Below, in pieces: positions 3,625 through 39,538 of a DNA stretch of 64,000 nucleotides. The stretch spans positions 1 to 64,000 of IMG/VR virus record IMGVR_UViG_3300032516_000007, one strand, 5' to 3'. The position numbers were made by a program, and so were the translations under genes. The notes under the pieces were generated by a model that was not told the origin of the DNA, searched no databases, and worked only from the letters and a program-made list of their open reading frames with translations. The first letter of the stretch is position 1; each line of letters begins with the position of its first letter. Source of the stretch: a virus.

Positions 3625-4010
3625 GTGACAAGGACTACGAGGTAAAGATCACTGAAGAGGAGCTGGAGATTCTCAATCAGGCTCTTGGTGACTACATCAT
3701 GGGTCTGGAAATGAAGGAGGGTCCCCAATCTGAGGTTGACAAGGTTGAGGCTCTCCAGGGGAAGCTTAACCGAGAGAAGAACATTCGCCAGGATCTCTTG
3801 GATGCCTCCGAGGATGATTCTTGCGAGCATTGTGATCTTGAGGATTGTCCTGCACAGTGTTTGGAGTCTCTGGGAGCTAGGCGAGCGAGTGACCGGGGGG
3901 ATTCCCCTGTTGAGTTCACGGAGTCCCACAGGGGGGAAGGGGCTCGAGATCAATGGGCTAGAGCCTATGACGACCTCAATGGGGCTCCGGAATCGGATGA
4001 CGACCGATGA
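3621..4010 (+). CDS. Hypothetical protein with C-terminal Cys cluster
   Basis: 129 residues. The first 60 are helical and charged (EEELEILNQALGDYIMGLEM). A cysteine/aspartate segment follows near 68-80 (SCEHCDLEDCPAQC), which could bind one zinc. The tail is polar and probably disordered. ATGA overlaps at both ends place it inside a tight run of small genes of unknown role. Confidence 0.7.
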   Translation: MSDKDYEVKITEEELEILNQALGDYIMGLEMKEGPQSEVDKVEALQGKLNREKNIRQDLLDASEDDSCEHCDLEDCPAQCLESLGARRASDRGDSPVEFTESHRGEGARDQWARAYDDLNGAPESDDDR

Positions 4011-4234
4011 AGCGTACATCTGATCTGAGTGCAGTCAGGAGGATGCTGATCCGAGCCAAGATCGAATACTCTGAGGAGGAGGAACTCCATTGTGATCGGG
4101 ACAGTCGGGACAGCCCTCACAATGGCAAGCCGGTCATCTGTCTTGATGTGGAGCGGGGTTACAGTGGATTCCATGTGGCGTTCGTCTTTCTGAAGGAGAC
4201 GGGAGAACTGTTGGACCTTGGAGCCTATGAATGA
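4007..4234 (+). CDS. Hypothetical small protein
   Basis: 75 residues with no recognised motif. The second half (VICLDVERGYSGFHVAFVFLKETGELLDLGAYE) reads as a small beta-rich domain, a pattern seen in several phage early proteins. Four-base overlaps with both neighbours indicate coupled translation. Confidence 0.65.
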   Translation: MKRTSDLSAVRRMLIRAKIEYSEEEELHCDRDSRDSPHNGKPVICLDVERGYSGFHVAFVFLKETGELLDLGAYE

Positions 4235-4635
4235 AAACTCCTGTCAAAAGAACGCCCGTCATCAGGACCCCGGTTCAGAGGCCCATCACTGTTGGTTCTA
4301 GAATCAAGCTAAAGGTGGGTGACAAGCAGCAGCTCAAGTGCTTGTTGGTGGGAAAGACGGGTAGGGTCTCAGAGATGTACCAGGATGGCACTTGCTACGT
4401 AATCCTGGATTGTGGTCACATGTGCGATGTGCCCCTGGCATCCATCGAGAAGAGCAACTTCAACAAATGTGTCAATTGCCATACATTGACGCATCGGTCA
4501 GAGCTGAAGATTCCATCGTTCTGGAATGGTAGTGGGGGTCTTTGCTCAGAGTGTTGGAAGGCTCTCAAGATTGACAAATACGAGAGGAAGGTAGATGAGG
4601 GATCAATTAGAGGTAAACGCAAATCTAGTTCGTGA
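4231..4635 (+). CDS. Zinc-finger protein with RTPV-rich N-terminus
   Basis: 134 residues. The N-terminus carries three tandem TPV units (KTPVKRTPVIRTPVQRP) that recur singly in other proteins of this phage. Residues about 25-75 form a likely beta-barrel (IKLKVGDKQQLKCLLVGKTGRVSEM), KOW- or SH3-like. A four-cysteine zinc site follows (CVNC near 88, CSEC near 112). It may bind nucleic acid. The end overlaps the next gene by 41 bases. Confidence 0.7.
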   Translation: MKTPVKRTPVIRTPVQRPITVGSRIKLKVGDKQQLKCLLVGKTGRVSEMYQDGTCYVILDCGHMCDVPLASIEKSNFNKCVNCHTLTHRSELKIPSFWNGSGGLCSECWKALKIDKYERKVDEGSIRGKRKSSS

Positions 4636-5254
4636 GCTGGGGGACCGATTGGTCCTAGGTCAAACGGAGTTCAGCTTCGCACTAGTTCAGGAGATGTTCA
4701 CTCGATCTTGGAACTTCAAACGGGAGCAGGGCCACTACTGGTTCACTGCCACGATCATTGGGAACAGTGACAACAAGATCTTTGCAGTTCACATCATGGG
4801 GGACTGCGGGATCGATACCTATCGAGCTGGCGAGCCAATGCCCATCGAGGCATTTGGGGACTGGTTGGGAAATAGCCACAGGGACTACATTCTCAGCAAG
4901 GGGGCTGAGCCAAAGGAGTTCCAGTGGAAGGCAGCCGTGGGGGATCTGAAGGGGTATCTGGAGCGTGAGAACGATGTAGACGCTTCCAAGATGCTGGACC
5001 GAATTGGGGGTGAGTTCGCGTACCCCGACTGTTCCGATCAGGTTAGTTTCCACAAGTTGGTTCTGGAAACAGCGGAAGAGGTTGGGTACGAGATTTACGA
5101 TGCTGTGAGTGATTGCAGGTGGGGACTTCGTTGGTCAGCCTGGGCCGAGTCTCGTCATTATCAGATCACCTACTTTGGGAACTGGCTTAAGAAGCAGGAA
5201 CGGGATGAGGGGCGCACCTCAGCGGAAATGATCATTTCACTTCCTGCTCTGTGA
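4595..5254 (+). CDS. Hypothetical protein
   Basis: 219 residues starting at an ATG preceded by GGAAGG. No known domain. The middle (residues 30-120) looks globular with several Trp/Tyr/Phe; the C-terminal part has DAVSDCRWGLRWSAWAESRHYQI. The 41-base overlap with the preceding frame is longer than usual here, so one of the two boundaries may be slightly off; codon use supports both frames as real. Confidence 0.65.
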   Translation: MRDQLEVNANLVRELGDRLVLGQTEFSFALVQEMFTRSWNFKREQGHYWFTATIIGNSDNKIFAVHIMGDCGIDTYRAGEPMPIEAFGDWLGNSHRDYILSKGAEPKEFQWKAAVGDLKGYLERENDVDASKMLDRIGGEFAYPDCSDQVSFHKLVLETAEEVGYEIYDAVSDCRWGLRWSAWAESRHYQITYFGNWLKKQERDEGRTSAEMIISLPAL

Positions 5255-5276
5255 ATCAGAGAGGGGAAAGAGGAAA

Positions 5277-6354: not shown

Positions 6355-7023
6355 ATGGCAAAGGTAGTGAAGGTCGAGGGGTTCAGCAGCAAGGAGCAGA
6401 AGATTCTCAATGCGCTTTCCAACGGGGAGCAACACAACATTCGGGAGCTGAAGAAGCTCTTCTGGGAGGCTGCCAAGGCACACTGTGCCGAGATCTACGA
6501 GAAGGGATGGGGCGAGCATGAGGTCAATGGGCAGGCCCAGAGTTACGTGCGAAACAGCGTGCGTCGCCTGATCCGTGACGGCTGGGTTGAGGGGCCACAC
6601 ATGAACGAGAACCTTCCCAGGGGCACCTACAAGCTCACCCGCTCCGGTCGTGATCGGGTTGCCAAGGGTGTGTCGATCACGCCCTCTCTCAAGGAGAGAG
6701 ACGCTCGTCGGGAGGGGCGCAAGGCCAACACGGCTGCCAAGAAGGCCAAGAAGGCTCCCGAGGCCAAGAAGGAGAAGAAGGTCAAGGTGAAGGCAGCTCC
6801 CAAGGCCAAGAAGGCTCCCAAGGCCAAGAAGGCTTCCAAGACAGCCGCCCCCAAGAAGGCCAAGGCCAAGGTGAAGGCCAAGCCCGCGAATGGGGCTCAG
6901 GCGAAGGCTCAGGCAGCCAAGGCGAAGGTTTCGAAGGAGGCAGCCAGGGAGAAGGCTCAGGATGCAGCTCGCCGAGCTGCTGAGGAGCCGAAGTCAGAAA
7001 CGTCCACGCCCACCGCGAACTGA
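6355..7023 (+). CDS. Winged-helix protein with histone H1-like tail
   Basis: 222 residues in two parts. Residues about 9-105 look like a winged helix-turn-helix (SSKEQKILNALSNGE; VRRLIRDGWVEG; GTYKLTRSGRDRVA). Residues about 115-215 are an almost pure Lys/Ala/Pro tail built on KAKKAPKAKKA-type repeats, as in eukaryotic linker histone H1 and bacterial H1-like proteins. Expected role: binding and compacting phage or host DNA. GGAGGACACA precedes the ATG. It is followed by another basic-tailed protein and then a strong terminator, so the pair ends a transcription unit. The tail is certain; the winged-helix call is by pattern. Confidence 0.75.
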   Translation: MAKVVKVEGFSSKEQKILNALSNGEQHNIRELKKLFWEAAKAHCAEIYEKGWGEHEVNGQAQSYVRNSVRRLIRDGWVEGPHMNENLPRGTYKLTRSGRDRVAKGVSITPSLKERDARREGRKANTAAKKAKKAPEAKKEKKVKVKAAPKAKKAPKAKKASKTAAPKKAKAKVKAKPANGAQAKAQAAKAKVSKEAAREKAQDAARRAAEEPKSETSTPTAN

Positions 7024-7034
7024 AGGAGTCTCAG

Positions 7035-7343
7035 ATGAAAAAAGAAGATAAGGAAAAGGTTGACGCTTTGACGGTTCGTTACCAGGCGAGGCTGGAGAAG
7101 CGTGTGGCTGAGGGGCTCGGTCTCCCTGGTGATGGGGGGAGGCAGGGTCGGCTTCCGGTGGGCATCACGGAGGAGAACCGGGAAGCCTACGTCGCTCTTC
7201 GCGATCAGCTCAGGCAGCTCAAGGATCTGCGGAAGAACTCGGTGGTCAAGCTGCGTGAGATCATCGATGGCATGGAGGCTCTGAAGGGGGCCAAGGCCAA
7301 GCCCGGGAAGAAGGCAGGGGCCAAGAAGAAGAAGGCATCCTGA
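7035..7343 (+). CDS. Small protein with basic Lys/Ala tail
   Basis: 102 residues. The first 80 are helical and charged (ALTVRYQARLEKRVAEG; YVALRDQLRQLKDLRKN) and probably form a coiled coil. The last 20 are a basic tail (GAKAKPGKKAGAKKKKAS) like that of its upstream neighbour. The shared tail and adjacency suggest both bind DNA. It is the last gene before the terminator at 7377. Confidence 0.65.
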   Translation: MKKEDKEKVDALTVRYQARLEKRVAEGLGLPGDGGRQGRLPVGITEENREAYVALRDQLRQLKDLRKNSVVKLREIIDGMEALKGAKAKPGKKAGAKKKKAS

Positions 7344-7746: not shown

Positions 7747-8058
7747 ATGCCCGAGCTGACAGAGAAACAGACGAAGGATCTCGAGAAGAAGAGGGAGAAG
7801 GCCACGAATGTCCAGCGTGCGTTGGACGATGACATTCCCTTTGAGGTCCTTGATGGGATGGAGAGCTTGCAGCACAGGGGCATCATCAAGAGGCTGAATC
7901 TCTGCTTCAAGCGTGGAGGGGTTGATGGGCTCGCCTTCCTGGGGTCTCTCGACAGCATGCTGCAAGAGTGGAAAGCACTCAGCAAGGTGATGGACGCCAC
8001 GAGGAAGATGGCTAGGAAGGAAGAGGAGAAGATCAGCAAGCTGCTCGGTACGGACTAG
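7747..8058 (+). CDS. Hypothetical helical protein
   Basis: 103 residues, almost entirely helical and highly charged, with AGGAGGAAG just before the ATG. No motif recognised. Immediate position before the DNA polymerase suggests it belongs to the replication block, perhaps as an accessory factor, but nothing in the sequence proves it. Confidence 0.65.
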   Translation: MPELTEKQTKDLEKKREKATNVQRALDDDIPFEVLDGMESLQHRGIIKRLNLCFKRGGVDGLAFLGSLDSMLQEWKALSKVMDATRKMARKEEEKISKLLGTD

Positions 8059-8107
8059 CAGGAGACTGCATCAACAAGAGCTGCTTTGCAGCCACTAGGA
8101 AGGTCAT

Positions 8108-10180
8108 ATGCAAAAACCAGCGACCTGGCCCCTACTGCCTGTTACAGCCAAAACCTGGGATGGGATTGCTGGTGGAAAATACCATCTCATCGATACGCTT
8201 CCTCTCTGGCATAGTTTCTATGAACAGTTGAAGATCAAGAAGCAAGTTGCTTGTGATTTGGAGGCAACTGGACTTTCCTATATTGATTCCAAGATTATTG
8301 GATTTAGTTTTAGTTGGGGAGCTGAGAATTCTTATTACGTCCCTGTTAGGCATGAGACGAATGAGAAGCAACTTGATATAGATGTTATTCGTCCAGATCT
8401 GGAAGAGTTCTTTTTTGATCCATCTCGCGTTACGATTTGGCACAATGCTAAGTTTGATTGTCACTTCCTAAAGATGGAGAATCTGACTCCTCGAGGAGTA
8501 GTGCATTGTACCCGCCTCATGCACTCTCTTATTCGTGAAGAACAGTCCACGACAGCATTGAAGAAGCTCGCTGAGGTAGAGATTCATCCAGATGCAGCAA
8601 AGTGGGAAGTTGCTATTGATGAGTTTCGTGCAACTTATGCTCGCAAGAATAAGATTCCCAAGAAGATGGTCCACTATGGATTGATCCCTCTTTCATTGAT
8701 GGTACCCTATGCTGCTTCTGACGGGCACTACGCATGGATTCTATACAAGAAGAAGTTGTCTCAAATAACCTCTGATCCTTCCCTGCAAGAGTTGTATCTT
8801 ATGGAGTCTCAGCTTCTTTGGGTTCTCCTCAATATTGAACACAATGGAGTTTTCATAGATCGTCCTTATCTTGAGAGGGTTGGTCCAGAGTTAGATATTG
8901 AGATAGAGAGATTAAGAGGGGAAATCAAGCAGGCACTAGGTGATGTGAACCCAGATAGTAACATGGCTTTGGCTGAACCACTTCAGAAGATGGGAGTGAA
9001 ACTAACCAAGAGAACCAAATCTGGGAATCGATTTTCTCTTGACTCTGAGGTTCTTGAGAAGTTGGCCAGCAAGTACAAAGTTTGTGCTGATCTCAAAGAG
9101 TACAGAGGTGTGGTAAAGATCAAGTCAACTTACATAGAAGGTATTATCAACAAACTTACTGATCTATGGCAACTTCATTGTGAATACAATCAGGTGGTCA
9201 GTACAGGTCGCATGTCTGGAAAATCTCCTAATCTCATGAATATCCCCGCCAAAAATAAATCCATCCGTCGTGCCTTTATCCCACCCAAAAGCGTCGTCTG
9301 CGTTAGTTGCAGTTACGAGAGAAAACATCTCGTGATACCGGCGAAATGTCCCATCTGCGGGGCTAAAGTGATCACGAAGGAGGACTACATTCTGGTCTTC
9401 ATGGATTACAACCAAATGGAGATCAGAATGACGGCTCACTACTCTCGGGATCCTGTTCTTCTGGATGTGTACAACGTCACCCACCAGGATGTTCACCTTC
9501 GGACGATGTGTGAGATCTGGGGGGAATATGGTTATGACGATGGATTGGCTATTTTACATGATGAATCTCATTCTGATCACATTCATGTAGTTGAGATGCG
9601 AAAGATTGCCAAGATCACTAACTTCCTCATCATCTACGGTGGTGGTCCCAGCAATCTGGCTTCCAACATCAGCACCCCAGATAAGCAATACACTGAAGCT
9701 GAGTGTCGTCGATTTATCCTGAGCTACTTTGAACGGTTGAAGGGGGTGCGGCGTTGGATTACACGTACAAAGATGTCCCTGAGAGAGACGGGGTGGGTCC
9801 AGAACTACTTTGGTCGCTACCGAAGGTTCCCGGAGCTGGCCAATTTGCTCAAGCGGGTTAGTAGAAATGCACAGTGGATGATAGAGCGTTGTGAGCGGCA
9901 GGCAACCAATTTTCTGATCCAAGGAACTTGTGCTGATTTATTCAAGATCGCTATGGTTCGTGCTAACTCAGTTTTGAAGGATGCAAGATCAGCGGTCATC
10001 ATGCCCATTCACGACGAGCTGGTGTTCTACTGGCATGTGGACGAGTTTAAGCACCTGGGTGAAGTCAAGGCCAAAATGGAAGACTTCAACTTTGAAGTGC
10101 CCATGACCGTGGACGTATCCTACTCCTCTTCTACTTGGGCCGAAAAGCATGAGCTGAAGCTGGCTCAAGCGATACGGTAG
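8108..10180 (+). CDS. DNA polymerase family A with 3'-5' exonuclease
   Basis: 690 residues. The proofreading domain has D50/E52 (DLEATG), N113/D117 (HNAKFD) and Y201/D205. The polymerase domain has TGRMSGKSPNLMNIP (366-380), motif A D433 (DYNQMEIR), motif B R498-K502-F506 (RKIAKITNF) and motif C H635-D636-E637. Phe at 506 is the Pol I-type residue that discriminates against dideoxynucleotides. An extra four-cysteine zinc knuckle (C398, C401, C414, C417) sits between RRAFIPP and motif A, which ordinary Pol I and T7 polymerases lack. There is no 5'-nuclease domain. It should be the replicative polymerase. The first two thirds is more AT-rich than the last third. Confidence 0.97.
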   Translation: MQKPATWPLLPVTAKTWDGIAGGKYHLIDTLPLWHSFYEQLKIKKQVACDLEATGLSYIDSKIIGFSFSWGAENSYYVPVRHETNEKQLDIDVIRPDLEEFFFDPSRVTIWHNAKFDCHFLKMENLTPRGVVHCTRLMHSLIREEQSTTALKKLAEVEIHPDAAKWEVAIDEFRATYARKNKIPKKMVHYGLIPLSLMVPYAASDGHYAWILYKKKLSQITSDPSLQELYLMESQLLWVLLNIEHNGVFIDRPYLERVGPELDIEIERLRGEIKQALGDVNPDSNMALAEPLQKMGVKLTKRTKSGNRFSLDSEVLEKLASKYKVCADLKEYRGVVKIKSTYIEGIINKLTDLWQLHCEYNQVVSTGRMSGKSPNLMNIPAKNKSIRRAFIPPKSVVCVSCSYERKHLVIPAKCPICGAKVITKEDYILVFMDYNQMEIRMTAHYSRDPVLLDVYNVTHQDVHLRTMCEIWGEYGYDDGLAILHDESHSDHIHVVEMRKIAKITNFLIIYGGGPSNLASNISTPDKQYTEAECRRFILSYFERLKGVRRWITRTKMSLRETGWVQNYFGRYRRFPELANLLKRVSRNAQWMIERCERQATNFLIQGTCADLFKIAMVRANSVLKDARSAVIMPIHDELVFYWHVDEFKHLGEVKAKMEDFNFEVPMTVDVSYSSSTWAEKHELKLAQAIR

Positions 10181-10855: not shown

Positions 10856-12160
10856 ATGGCAACGTTCAAGACCTCAGTTGAAAAAGCCAAAGCGAAAGCA
10901 GCCGAAGAGGCAGCCAAGGCTGAGAATCGTTTCCAGAGGACAGCACGGACTTTCTGGAAGCCCAAGCAGGGACAGAACCGCATTCGCATCCTCCCGGCTT
11001 GGACGGGTGAAGGCCCCAACGCCAATCAGTTCTGGCGTGAGATGTACGTGCATTGGGGGATTGGTCCTGACGAGGAGAATCAGGTCAACCTCACGTGCCC
11101 TCGGCTCACTCCTGGGAGCGAGACCAAGGAGTGTCCGGTTTGTGATGAGTATAACCGCCTGCGGGGAACAAAAGACCCCAACGATCTGGAGATGGCAAAG
11201 GAGCTTCGAGCGAAGCAGCGTGCCTACAGCAACATCATTGATCTGACTGACCCTACGTGGTCACAGGAGGATCTTGATGAGTTTAAGCTTCAAGGTGTCG
11301 AGGAGATTCCTGGGGTGGATTCCCCCAAGATCCAGGTTTTCAACTATGGGCCTACCATTCTGAAGGAACTGTTGGACATCTTCTGTGACGAGATTGATCT
11401 GACGGATCTTACGGAAGGCCACAACGTGGTCATCACTCGCACGGGAAAAGATCTCCAGACTCAGTACAGGGTTCGCATCGAGACCAAATCGACACCTGCT
11501 CCGGTCGATTCAGAGCCTGATCTTCATGATCTGGATGCTATCATGCCTTTCAAGGAGCCCTATGTGATGAAGGCTCTGCTTGAGGGGGTCGATCCAGAGG
11601 AGATGAAGAAGCTGTATCTAGCCGAGGGAAAAATCATTGAGGGTGGCAATGGGGAGAGTAAGCCTGCTGCTAAGGCTGCCTCTAAGCCTGCTGCTAAGGC
11701 TGTCGCCAAGAAGCCTGCTCCCAAGCCCGAGCCTGTTGAGGAAGAGGCTGTCGAAGAGGAAGAGGTTGCAGAGGAAGAGGTTGCAGAGGAGGAAGAGGCT
11801 GTCGAGGAAGAGGCTGTCGAGGAAGAGGCTGTTGCAGAGGAAGAAGGGGAGGGTCCTCCTCCATGTTTCGGTGCGGAGTTGGATGCTGGTGATACCCAGT
11901 GCTCTGAGGATTGCGGTCTATTCGAGGACTGCAAGGTTGTTACGGAGGCAAGGTTGGCCAAGGAAAAGAGGAAGCCAGTTGGGAAACCAGCTAGCAAGCC
12001 TGCTCCTGTTGCTGCCAAACCTGCTGGCAAGCCAGCGGCTCCCGTGGCGGGAAAGAAGCCTGCTTCTCCAGCAACAGGGAAGGCTGCGGGGAAGATGGAC
12101 ACGGGCGATGTGGACGATCTGGCCAAACGGATGCGTGCGGCTATCGACGGCAACCGTTAG
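10856..12160 (+). CDS. gp32-like single-stranded DNA-binding protein
   Basis: 434 residues. The core (RTFWKPKQGQNRIRILP; REMYVHWGIG; ECPVCDEYN with a CxxC zinc site) matches the T4 gp32/phage SSB fold that coats single-stranded DNA at forks. An Ala/Lys/Pro linker and a long Glu/Val/Ala acidic stretch (about residues 295-330) follow. Then comes a cysteine cluster (CFGAELDAGDTQCSEDC) and a basic KPAxKPAGKPA region. It is much longer than T4 gp32 (about 300 residues). Neighbours are the polymerase and RecA, as expected for replication-coupled recombination. Confidence 0.9.
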   Translation: MATFKTSVEKAKAKAAEEAAKAENRFQRTARTFWKPKQGQNRIRILPAWTGEGPNANQFWREMYVHWGIGPDEENQVNLTCPRLTPGSETKECPVCDEYNRLRGTKDPNDLEMAKELRAKQRAYSNIIDLTDPTWSQEDLDEFKLQGVEEIPGVDSPKIQVFNYGPTILKELLDIFCDEIDLTDLTEGHNVVITRTGKDLQTQYRVRIETKSTPAPVDSEPDLHDLDAIMPFKEPYVMKALLEGVDPEEMKKLYLAEGKIIEGGNGESKPAAKAASKPAAKAVAKKPAPKPEPVEEEAVEEEEVAEEEVAEEEEAVEEEAVEEEAVAEEEGEGPPPCFGAELDAGDTQCSEDCGLFEDCKVVTEARLAKEKRKPVGKPASKPAPVAAKPAGKPAAPVAGKKPASPATGKAAGKMDTGDVDDLAKRMRAAIDGNR

Positions 12161-12223: not shown

Positions 12224-13357
12224 ATGGCCAGGACCGCAGTCAAACGTAAGTCATCTACCCAGGCTGACGAAGATCAACTGGTTCATCTTGTCGTCAAGAA
12301 GATGGAGAACCAGTTTGGTTCCAGATCAGCTCTCATTCCTGATTCTGGAACCATTCTCTGCCAGATTGATCACTGGGTCAGCACACGCAACTTTCTCATC
12401 GATAGTGCCATTGCCGGTGGGCTTCCCATGCCCCGTCCCATCATTCCCTTTGGAAGGCTCACTGAGATTGCTGGGCTCAATGGAACAGGGAAGACAACGC
12501 TTCTGGGTCAGATCATCGCAGAGACACAGGCCACAGGTGGCATTGCTGCGGTCATTGACACAGAGCAGTCCATTGATCTTTCTTACTTCGAGAAGCTGGG
12601 AGTCAATCTAAGTCGGTTGATTGTGATCCAGTGTGAAACCATCGAAGATGTGTTCACACGTCTTGTTTCTCTCGTTGAAGCGATCAAGGAGTTCAGCACA
12701 GACCGTCTCATTTGCATGGGATGGGATTCACTAGGTGGAACCCCGACCAAGGCTCAGGCTACTGCTGAAGCTGATGATCATTTCTACGCTGAGGCAGCGA
12801 AGGTGGTGGGTAAGAACCTCCAACGTCTCATCCAGATGATCTCCCGAGAGCGTATTGCTCTTGTCTTCAACAACCACCTCTATCGGAAGATGAACGTGAA
12901 GTACGGGGACCCCTGGGAGACCTACGGAGGGGAGAAGGTCAAGTTCTACTCGACGTTGAGGATTCGCCTTGAGCGAGTGGGAGCTATCGGTGAGGGTATT
13001 AAGGACAAGGATGAGGAAAAAGTGATCATTGGGCATCGGGTCAAGGTGAAGGTGATCAAGAACAAGATGGCTCCAATGCTGAGATCTGTTGTGGTTCCTT
13101 GCATTGGGAATCATGGTTTCAGTCTCAACTACTCTGTTTTCGAGCATTCGATTCAGCAGGGGTTGATCACGGGAAAGACGTGGCGATCTTGGTCCACCTC
13201 ATCGGAAGAGGTGAAGTTCCTGGGTTGGAAAGGGTTTCAGGAGAAGGTCATGGTACATCCTGAGTATCCTGATCTGGTCCAGCAGGTGGTGTCAAATCAC
13301 TACCATAAGAATTCCGTTGCTGGGGAAGTAGAGACGGAAGTGGAGGATGAAGAGTGA
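12224..13357 (+). CDS. RecA/UvsX-like strand-exchange recombinase
   Basis: 377 residues. Walker A is GLNGTGKTT (84-92), the catalytic glutamate is in DTEQ (about 114), and Walker B is within LICMGWDSLGG. The DNA-binding loop region reads YGGEKVKFYSTLRIRLERVG. It should polymerise on single-stranded DNA and drive strand exchange for recombination-dependent replication and repair, together with the SSB upstream and the SbcCD pair downstream. The C-terminus is long and acidic. AGGAGG precedes the ATG. Confidence 0.95.
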   Translation: MARTAVKRKSSTQADEDQLVHLVVKKMENQFGSRSALIPDSGTILCQIDHWVSTRNFLIDSAIAGGLPMPRPIIPFGRLTEIAGLNGTGKTTLLGQIIAETQATGGIAAVIDTEQSIDLSYFEKLGVNLSRLIVIQCETIEDVFTRLVSLVEAIKEFSTDRLICMGWDSLGGTPTKAQATAEADDHFYAEAAKVVGKNLQRLIQMISRERIALVFNNHLYRKMNVKYGDPWETYGGEKVKFYSTLRIRLERVGAIGEGIKDKDEEKVIIGHRVKVKVIKNKMAPMLRSVVVPCIGNHGFSLNYSVFEHSIQQGLITGKTWRSWSTSSEEVKFLGWKGFQEKVMVHPEYPDLVQQVVSNHYHKNSVAGEVETEVEDEE

Positions 13358-35767: not shown

Positions 35768-36268
35768 ATGCGTTCCCAAGAAGTGAGACTAGCATGGATC
35801 AGAGATCGTCTGAATGATATTTGGTTCAGCGGAAAAGGTCCTGCTGGAGGGGAGATTCTCGATAAGTATAAAGAAGAGTTTGAAGCTCTTTTGCAAGAAG
35901 AGTTGAACTTGCAATCCGAATACCAGAGGGGGTCATGGAGAATAGGCAGAAATGAAAATGCCCGCCAAGCACTATTGCCTGACGGGCCAGTAGAGTGTGG
36001 ACTTGACTCGAAGGTAGCTCTCCCGGAGGAGGGATGCAAGATGCGCCGTTGGCGATATCGTGCGTGGCGTCTTCCCAATGGATCGAAAGTGGTCTGTGTG
36101 CTAGATCGCGAATTTCCGCCATCGCCTGATTACGATATTCAATGGGAGCATCAAACAAGTAATGGAAGATTTGGAGTTGATGTGATCTCACGTGAACAAG
36201 CTAAGATCTTGTTACGTGGCCCACGAACTCCATGCGAATGGGATGTTGATACGTTGAAAGGGGAATGA
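35768..36268 (+). CDS. Hypothetical protein, possibly two genes read as one
   Basis: 166 residues from ATG 35768 (GTG 35756 also possible). Residues 1-60 are a charged helix (LDKYKEEFEALLQEELNLQ). Residues about 63-80 are encoded by repeat copy B. From residue 92 the frame has an internal ATG (36041) with GGAGGAGGG seven bases upstream, the best ribosome site nearby, beginning MRRWRYRAWRLPNG. The C-terminal 75 residues may therefore be a separate or additional product. Confidence 0.5.
   Translation: MRSQEVRLAWIRDRLNDIWFSGKGPAGGEILDKYKEEFEALLQEELNLQSEYQRGSWRIGRNENARQALLPDGPVECGLDSKVALPEEGCKMRRWRYRAWRLPNGSKVVCVLDREFPPSPDYDIQWEHQTSNGRFGVDVISREQAKILLRGPRTPCEWDVDTLKGE
35953..36011. repeat. 58-nt direct repeat, copy B
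   Basis: Second copy of the 35691 repeat, here inside an open frame and 30 bases before a strong internal ribosome site. Confidence 0.85.
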
Positions 36269-36912
36269 TCATGCTGACTCCAGAACTGACACGCGACTTC
36301 TGGGACCACATGCTGAAGGAGTTCGGCGCCGTGGCAACGCAGAAGGGTGATGCCGAGCTGATGAAGGTCGTGGCCACGGTCCTGGATGCGTTTGGTGTGC
36401 AGGACAAAGAGCAGTTCATGAAGGACTTCGTGACCACCCTGGGCCGTACCATCTACATCCCCTTCGAAGTAGGGATTGAGAGTGACAAGTGGCCTACTTG
36501 GACTGTCTGGGCTCAAGTTCGCGTGTGCGTCCACGAATGTGGTCATGTCGTGCAAGGCAACCGCGAGGGCTGGGCCACCTTCGATTCACGCTACGTGACT
36601 TCATCCTCCTTCCGCGCAGGTTACGAGGCCGAGTGCTACGGCTGCGATATGGAGATGGAGTTCTGGCGGCTGGGCTCGTCTGGCTTCGATCCGTTTCGGT
36701 TCGCTCAGGAGCGTCCGTTGAGTCTCAAGAACTATGGCTGCAAGGAAGCTGAGATCGAACAGGCTCAGCAGATGCTCACCATCCGTGCGGGGCTCGTGGC
36801 TCAAGGTGTGGTTGAGACCAGAGCCGCTCAGGTGGCAATTCCGTGGTTGGAGGCGAACGTGCCGGACCTTCGCCTCCTGGCTCGAGGCGTGTCAGGGCTG
36901 AGGGAGGTGTGA
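36265..36912 (+). CDS. HExxH zinc-metalloprotease-like protein
   Basis: 215 residues from the ATGA junction. H90-E91-x-x-H94 (VCVHECGHVVQG) is followed by a Glu at 121 or 123 (AGYEAECYG) as third ligand, the gluzincin arrangement. The core is compact, as in minimal peptidases. No signal peptide, so it should act in the host cytoplasm or in the virion. The DNA is clearly more GC-rich with C-ending codons than its neighbours, suggesting recent transfer. Confidence 0.7.
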   Translation: MIMLTPELTRDFWDHMLKEFGAVATQKGDAELMKVVATVLDAFGVQDKEQFMKDFVTTLGRTIYIPFEVGIESDKWPTWTVWAQVRVCVHECGHVVQGNREGWATFDSRYVTSSSFRAGYEAECYGCDMEMEFWRLGSSGFDPFRFAQERPLSLKNYGCKEAEIEQAQQMLTIRAGLVAQGVVETRAAQVAIPWLEANVPDLRLLARGVSGLREV

Positions 36913-37795: not shown

Positions 37796-37912
37796 CTCAA
37801 CCTGGTTAAGATGGGGAGCGATATAGTAGACGCTATCTTGGCTATAACGTAGATGGGGAGAACCCCCATGCCATTGACTACCATGCCAACAAGATCGAAA
37901 GGGAGAAAGTAA
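37796..37912. other. Intergenic leader before the histone-fold gene
   Basis: 117 bases with AACCTGGTTAAGATGGGG at the left, which repeats a motif of the 32.5 kb non-coding region, and a TATAAC that could be a -10 box without a clear -35. It probably carries regulatory signals for the downstream run. Confidence 0.4.
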
Positions 37913-38119
37913 ATGGCACAGATGCTAGTTGTTGTGTCCAAGGTCAAGGCAATGGGGAAGGCAGTTGATTTTCGTATCTCGCTGGAGTTTTGTGAGAGGC
38001 TGAGTGAGAAGCTGGGGGACATTGTGATTGCGGCTGTCAAGATTGCACATGCTGATGGGAGGGGGACCGTGAAGGCACGGGACATGCCTATCATCACTTT
38101 GGAGTCCAAGGAGGAGTGA
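37913..38119 (+). CDS. Bacterial/archaeal-type histone-fold protein
   Basis: 68 residues, a full histone-fold length. It begins LVVVSKVKAMGK, the signature start of DUF1931-type bacterial histones, continues with a long central helix (SLEFCERLSEKLGDIVIAAVKIAHADG) and ends with R50-x-T52-xxxx-D57 (GRGTVKARDM). That is the RxTxxxxD clamp of archaeal and eukaryotic histones. Expected to dimerise and bind, bend or coat DNA. AAAGGGAG precedes the ATG. It heads a run of small genes and has no fused domain. Confidence 0.85.
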   Translation: MAQMLVVVSKVKAMGKAVDFRISLEFCERLSEKLGDIVIAAVKIAHADGRGTVKARDMPIITLESKEE

Positions 38120-38120
38120 C

Positions 38121-38615
38121 ATGACCAAGCCCAAGGCTAAGTCCAAGAAGTTGAATCCCTGGAAATCCTTCGATAAGGCTCTCGAGATCAAGAAGGAGCC
38201 TGAGAAGGTGCTGACTAAGGAGGAGAAGGTTGAGGTCAAGAGGTTGGAAGTAGAGATCAAGATCCTGGTAAAGGAGAGGAAGAAGATCGTGAAACAGGAG
38301 GATGATCTGTGCTCTAGGTCATACCAACTGGAGGAGGAAGGTCCCAACTATGAAATATCGGATGCGATCATCAATGACATGAGAGAGATTCCCAGGGTGA
38401 GCAAGCAGGTAGGAATTGATCCCCGTCGATATATCGAGGCGTGCAAGCTCTACCTCAAAGCCTGGAAGGATCTGGACAAGAAGTTCGCTGCGGCGAAGAA
38501 GAAGGTAGACGAAGAAATAGAGAAGGTTCAGGAAAAGAAAGATAGTCAAGATGCCGTGATCGATGATCTCAAGGAGAAGCGTCAAGAGCTGAAGCCGAGT
38601 CCGTCCTTTTTCTAG
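38121..38615 (+). CDS. Coiled-coil protein
   Basis: 164 residues, two bases after the histone-fold gene and with GGAGTGAC before the ATG. Basic N-terminus (TKPKAKSKKLNPWKSF) and two long coiled coils (about 35-70 and 110-158). Adjacency and a basic start make a joint role with the histone possible but unproved. Confidence 0.65.
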   Translation: MTKPKAKSKKLNPWKSFDKALEIKKEPEKVLTKEEKVEVKRLEVEIKILVKERKKIVKQEDDLCSRSYQLEEEGPNYEISDAIINDMREIPRVSKQVGIDPRRYIEACKLYLKAWKDLDKKFAAAKKKVDEEIEKVQEKKDSQDAVIDDLKEKRQELKPSPSFF

Positions 38616-39535: not shown

Positions 39536-39538
39536 GTC

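Follow-up and report, generated by a model that had tools for sequence, protein, structure and literature searches.

The open reading frame at 37913 is a real gene and encodes a single-domain histone of the alpha3 (HBb/Bd0055) type, and such a bacterial-dimer-type histone in phages is a new variant beside the phage histones already published. The window, the whole stretch of 64,000 nucleotides analysed here, is the first part (positions 1-64000) of a virus record, G000, that is 115,041 bases long and has genes for a phage DNA polymerase, SSB, UvsX, SbcC/SbcD, a terminase, a portal and an SPO1-like major capsid protein. By this gene set G000 is a tailed phage. No tRNA was found in the 115-kb record. 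The window also encodes, at 26-1375, a CobT-like protein with an acidic linker, which matches PHROG families named cobaltochelatase CobT and here lies in a phage.

Table 1. Features of the window, with the evidence for each or its relation to other genes
Feature	Position	Strand	Evidence or relation
Winged-helix domain (~residues 1-105) with K/A-rich tail, H1-like layout	6355..7023	+	AF2, Foldseek, orthologues
Small protein with K/A-rich end	7035..7343	+	G012 homologue fills the SSB-UvsX slot (histone in G058)
Phage ssDNA-binding protein (SSB)	10856..12160	+	G058 homologue directly 5' of histone gene
UvsX-like recombinase	12224..13357	+	G058 homologue directly 3' of histone gene
Shine-Dalgarno-like AAGGGAG	37899..37905	+	7 nt ahead of histone ATG; sequence
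HBb-type (alpha3, bacterial-dimer) single-domain histone, 68 aa	37913..38119	+	ORF, phmmer, AF2, Foldseek, HMM
Next gene, 164 aa, lysine-rich, probably coiled coil	38121..38615	+	No match in any relative fetched

The product reads MAQMLVVVSKVKAMGKAVDFRISLEFCERLSEKLGDIVIAAVKIAHADGRGTVKARDMPIITLESKEE, and its translation agrees with what an earlier note on this DNA had said of it: 68 residues, a VVSKVKA start, an intact RxTxxxxD clamp (R50, T52 and D57) and no fused domain. Because orthologues in related phages begin at the equivalent of M4, the true start may be this methionine, at 37922. The protein carries a net charge of +1 and has an acidic C-terminal tail. Its gene belongs to a group of small accessory genes outside the replication module, about 4.6 kb ahead of the portal-adjacent structural genes (42695 onward). 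Inside the final codons lies AAGGAGGAG (38108-38116), the Shine-Dalgarno of the gene at 38121; that gene was considered as a conserved partner of the histone and dropped because the relatives examined yielded no homologue.

Homology to bacterial histones is strong. A profile HMM built from 49 bacterial histone relatives and searched against the 1463 stop-to-stop ORFs of the 115-kb record finds the histone ORF at E=8.5e-21, with the runner-up at 1.7 and the best reversed ORF at 2.3; membership of the HBb-type class by sequence thus follows from this 49-member model rather than from the CLANS clustering of the defining paper. Among PDB chains, phmmer places HBb first (8e-6), followed by the face-to-face histone HTkC (9f2c; 3.7e-5), HLp (0.009) and HMfB (0.04). 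Identity to bacterial HBb-type members is 38-49%, the upper value being the maximum with any cellular sequence found, and the bacterial relatives come from Bdellovibrionota, Planctomycetota, Elusimicrobiota, Auribacterota, Nitrospirota and others. An NCBIfam archaeal histone model matches at 4e-4, beneath its curated cut-off. The DUF1931-type label proposed in the earlier note does not hold: Pfam DUF1931 (PF09123; Aquifex, Thermus) is matched at E 0.002 with 18.7 bits against a cut-off of 21.8, and over model positions 22-55 of 138 only, a distant histone-fold homology. DUF1931 proteins are pseudodimers without DNA-binding signature residues (PMC12701072), whereas the phage histone is a single 68-residue domain of the HBb-type alpha3 kind.

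The predicted structure agrees with this placement. An AlphaFold2 (AF2) monomer model, built with 55 natural relatives, shows a histone fold at pLDDT 91, in which two helices (residues 8-17 and 24-47) are followed by a third of a single turn (55-57); helix 2 is shortened and helix 3 reduced to the 3-4 residues that define alpha3 histones. In a Foldseek search of the PDB, the four best matches (E<=0.001) are all HBb chains (TM 0.80-0.82; 9ezz at E 1.3e-4), and HLp and then HTkC follow at TM 0.72-0.76, an HBb-led ranking that makes this a histone of the alpha3, bacterial-dimer kind. Profile, model and structural matches together bear out the stand-alone, phage-encoded histone fold that the earlier note had read from the letters. 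The viral structure library BFVD gave a weaker match (TM 0.75/0.79) to A0A6J5QYV5, a 64-residue protein; this entry and A0A6J5MS37 are unnamed proteins of uncultured Caudovirales phages whose predicted folds are histone-like.

Most of the residues through which HBb touches DNA are kept. The HBb contacts N22, R57, S9, T53, T8, S24, K10, K12, K52 and K16 (PMC11317129) align with phage R21, R56, S9, T52, V8, S23, K10, K12, G51 and K16, so that seven of ten are identical (S9, K10, K12, K16, S23, T52 and R56). One is replaced by arginine (N22 to R21) and two are lost (T8 to V8, and K52 of the L2 loop to G51). Helix 1 thus retains the S9-K10 pair and the lysines K12 and K16, with alanine in place of HBb K13. 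Six positions that map to HBb DNA contacts (S9, K10, K12, K16, R21 and T52) are invariant across the phage alignment A8. The residues of face-to-face tetramers, R49 and N53 in HLp (PMC12701072; R48/N52 in FtF numbering), correspond to I44 and D48 in the phage protein, and their absence indicates a dimer-type histone. The chain ends 11 residues past helix 3 and has no C-terminal tetramerisation domain.

Set beside known classes, the protein resembles HBb/Bd0055 of Bdellovibrio bacteriovorus (PMC11317129, PMC10627809, PMC11390915) in its single domain of 60-68 residues, short helix 2, one-turn helix 3, VVxSKVK start, RxTxxxxD motif, most DNA-contact residues and lack of face-to-face tetramer residues. 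It differs in being phage-encoded, in its 41-44% identity, in the loss of the T8 and K52 contacts, in its acidic C-terminal tail and in the loss of the clamp from two orthologues. HLp and HTkC (face-to-face alpha3 histones) share its superfamily, but their R49/N53-type residues are missing. The 'phage histones' of Schwab et al. 2024 (e.g. A0A2E7QIQ9) also have an alpha3 histone fold and occur in tailed phages; by contrast, they carry a C-terminal helical tetramerisation domain and no RxTxxxD motif (PMC11390915). Because the G000 histone has the motif and no extra domain, it is a different variant. The same authors describe bacterial dimers as restricted to bacteria (PMC11390915), and the present gene lies in a tailed phage, a departure that concerns the distribution of the class and not the protein. 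A search of the open-access literature found no report of HBb-type phage histones.

Orthologues occur in two contigs that share the G000 capsid, G012 and G044, and in the pair G058/G059. The G044 histone is 64% identical to that of G000 over 56 residues, with dN of 0.30, dS of about 2.0 (near saturation) and dN/dS of about 0.15, and 34 of the 59 nucleotide differences fall at third codon positions; the low ratio and the excess of third-position changes indicate purifying selection. The G058 histone is 54% identical to that of G000. In both G044 and G058 the two clamp residues have changed together (R to M, D to H), with S9, K10, K12, K16, R21 and T52 kept. Because two orthologues have replaced both residues, the clamp is optional within the lineage, and it is not the key feature of this histone. 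Orthologous histones with both residues so replaced lie at 5007-5204 of L164 and 1504-1698 of L158.

The gene has moved within the genome yet been retained. In G058 the DNA polymerase gene is followed, after one intervening gene, by those for SSB, the histone and UvsX, and SSB and UvsX flank the histone in G059 too. In G012 the histone gene is followed by a homologue of the G000 gene at 39536, and in G044 it stands on the opposite strand to the structural genes.

Scanning with the capsid protein of G000 retrieved 62 contigs, of which 50 were searched for the histone and two (G012 and G044) carry it; a terminase scan of viral contigs gave no match. Among 36 capsid relatives tested, the neighbouring gene at 36265-36912 is held only by G012, G044 and G011, the last of which is cut at its edge. 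Since the other contigs lack this neighbour, absence of the histone there mostly means that the region lies off the contig. In the larger contigs of three distant relatives of the same capsid family (G036, G040 and G041), the histone was not detectable, so it is not a core part of replication. In L088, a major capsid protein (7850-9295) about 40% identical to that of SPO1-type phages is found with a terminase resembling those of Thermus, Aeromonas and Pseudomonas phages, a mix that apparently marks an undescribed lineage with 62 IMG/VR relatives.

We favour, at about an even chance, a small homodimeric HBb-type histone that bends the phage's own replicating or recombining DNA without sequence specificity. 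The histone would form a homodimer and, like HBb, most likely contact the minor-groove backbone of DNA of any sequence and bend it. In this role it would be a nucleoid-associated protein that the phage supplies for its own DNA, most likely during replication or recombination. The computation establishes the homology, the fold, the conserved DNA-contact positions, the purifying selection and the replication-module location in a relative, while dimerisation, DNA binding, bending and the stage of infection are inferred. Counting against this reading are the lost T8 and K52 contacts, the low net charge, the location of the G000 gene outside the replication module and the lack of a detectable histone in G036, G040 and G041.

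A rather unlikely alternative is that the protein mimics host chromatin, heterodimerising with or replacing an HBb-type histone of the host and loosening its chromatin or steering transcription. Its close cellular relatives are indeed HBb-type histones (of Bdellovibrionota, Elusimicrobiota, Planctomycetota, Nitrospirota and others), and histones are present in several phage lineages. Further, helix 2, the dimer-forming element of HBb, is conserved (I37, V38 and I39 are invariant in alignment A7) while L2 and the clamp drift, as expected if the phage protein pairs with another histone. However, no sign of a histone in a host, nor the host itself, was found, and the phage sequence does not exceed the 49% identity to cellular sequences given above.

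It is improbable that the protein is a histone-fold regulator or protein-protein adaptor that has lost DNA binding. The loss of the RD clamp from G044 and G058, glycine at the HBb K52 position in G000, G044 and L007, and the acidic tail would suit an adaptor, but the six residues invariant in set A8 argue for retained DNA contacts. Nor do we think it probable, by a slightly lower estimate again, that this is a virion protein aiding condensation or packaging of the phage genome. Such a role would have a precedent in Marseilleviridae, where DNA in virions is packaged by viral nucleosomes according to work cited in PMC11390915. The position of the G000 gene ahead of the portal-adjacent structural genes would also fit; against this stand the replication-module location in G058 and the opposite-strand gene in G044. 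Tailed phages, moreover, pack naked DNA by a motor. Although the gene is short and the contig metagenomic, a chance ORF or a bacterial gene misassembled into the contig as a contaminant is refuted to near certainty by the presence of orthologues on independent phage contigs whose capsid, portal or replication genes are homologous, and the bacterial-profile score stands against a chance level above 1.

The dimeric DNA bender that we favour may have a companion in the product of the gene at 6355, which the earlier note had called H1-like. The layout holds, a winged helix followed by a 117-residue tail of 26.5% lysine and 28% alanine with a net charge of +27; homology to linker histones does not, as neither a linker histone GH5 domain nor an H1 Pfam match was found in the product. 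The winged helix is modelled by AF2 at pLDDT 82, its Foldseek neighbours are MarR/PadR-like (none at E<=0.001), and profile matches are weak and confined to Mrr_N/PadR. Lysine-richness is common to this product, chlamydial Hc1 and the moraphage H1-like proteins (PF07432; PMC12619734), the last of which are also phage-borne, but in the 6355 product a MarR/PadR/Mrr_N-like winged helix precedes the tail, and PF07432 is not matched. Orthologues occur in G012 (63%) and G058/G059 (57%), all of which also carry the histone, a co-occurrence that makes the pairing more interesting. The proteins at 6355-7023 of the window and in L163 and L168 share the winged helix with a lysine/alanine-rich tail and are possible linker-like partners of the histone. 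A doubtful extension is a minimal two-part chromatin kit in a lineage of tailed phages with SPO1-like capsids: an HBb-type core histone, evolving away from the RD clamp, and a linker-like partner with a winged helix and lysine tail would together coat or bend phage DNA where it replicates or recombines. The phage may build or disturb chromatin-like structures, as the earlier note had proposed.

Further stand-alone histones came from pattern scans of IMG/VR, in L003/L004, L005, L006, L007, L091/L092 and L164/L165. At least five other phage lineages carry them; L006 is taken as a phage mainly from its IMG/VR listing and gene layout. Several of these histones lie beside phage genes (ThyX, Sak4, primase, exonuclease, dNMP phosphatase, portal). 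Histones on unrelated phage contigs include those at 7980-8183 of L005, 8001-8180 of L006 and 4986-5180 of L091, and the 87-kb histone-bearing phage contig L007 encodes a tmRNA and several tRNAs (3836-5272) near its histone gene. No isolate phage was found to carry a recognisable histone. A tblastn search of 50,697 phage records returned just 3 weak matches for query P0001, all at E 5-10 and judged to be chance, and none at E<=1 for five other histone queries, in keeping with the rarity of phage histones that the earlier note had asserted. Weak matches of this kind lay in Caulobacter phage CcrPW, antisense to an annotated gene, and in a phage of Erwinia.

In the tree the G000 and G044 histones group together (99/92), and a test of all phage histones as a single clade gave an AU p of 0.05-0.09, on about 60 columns with long branches. 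The nearest cellular branches are Elusimicrobiota-like sequences; because branch lengths are large, we claim no host from them.

That at least six phage lineages have a stand-alone histone of the HBb type suggests movement of these proteins between cells and viruses, and carriage by phages offers a route to the scattered distribution of histones among bacteria. The natural loss of the clamp in orthologues is a test of what this conserved motif does, and the gene order SSB-histone-UvsX points to a specific function that can be probed. Together, the several relatives and unrelated phages with a histone suggest that these phages organise or remodel DNA by means of histones.
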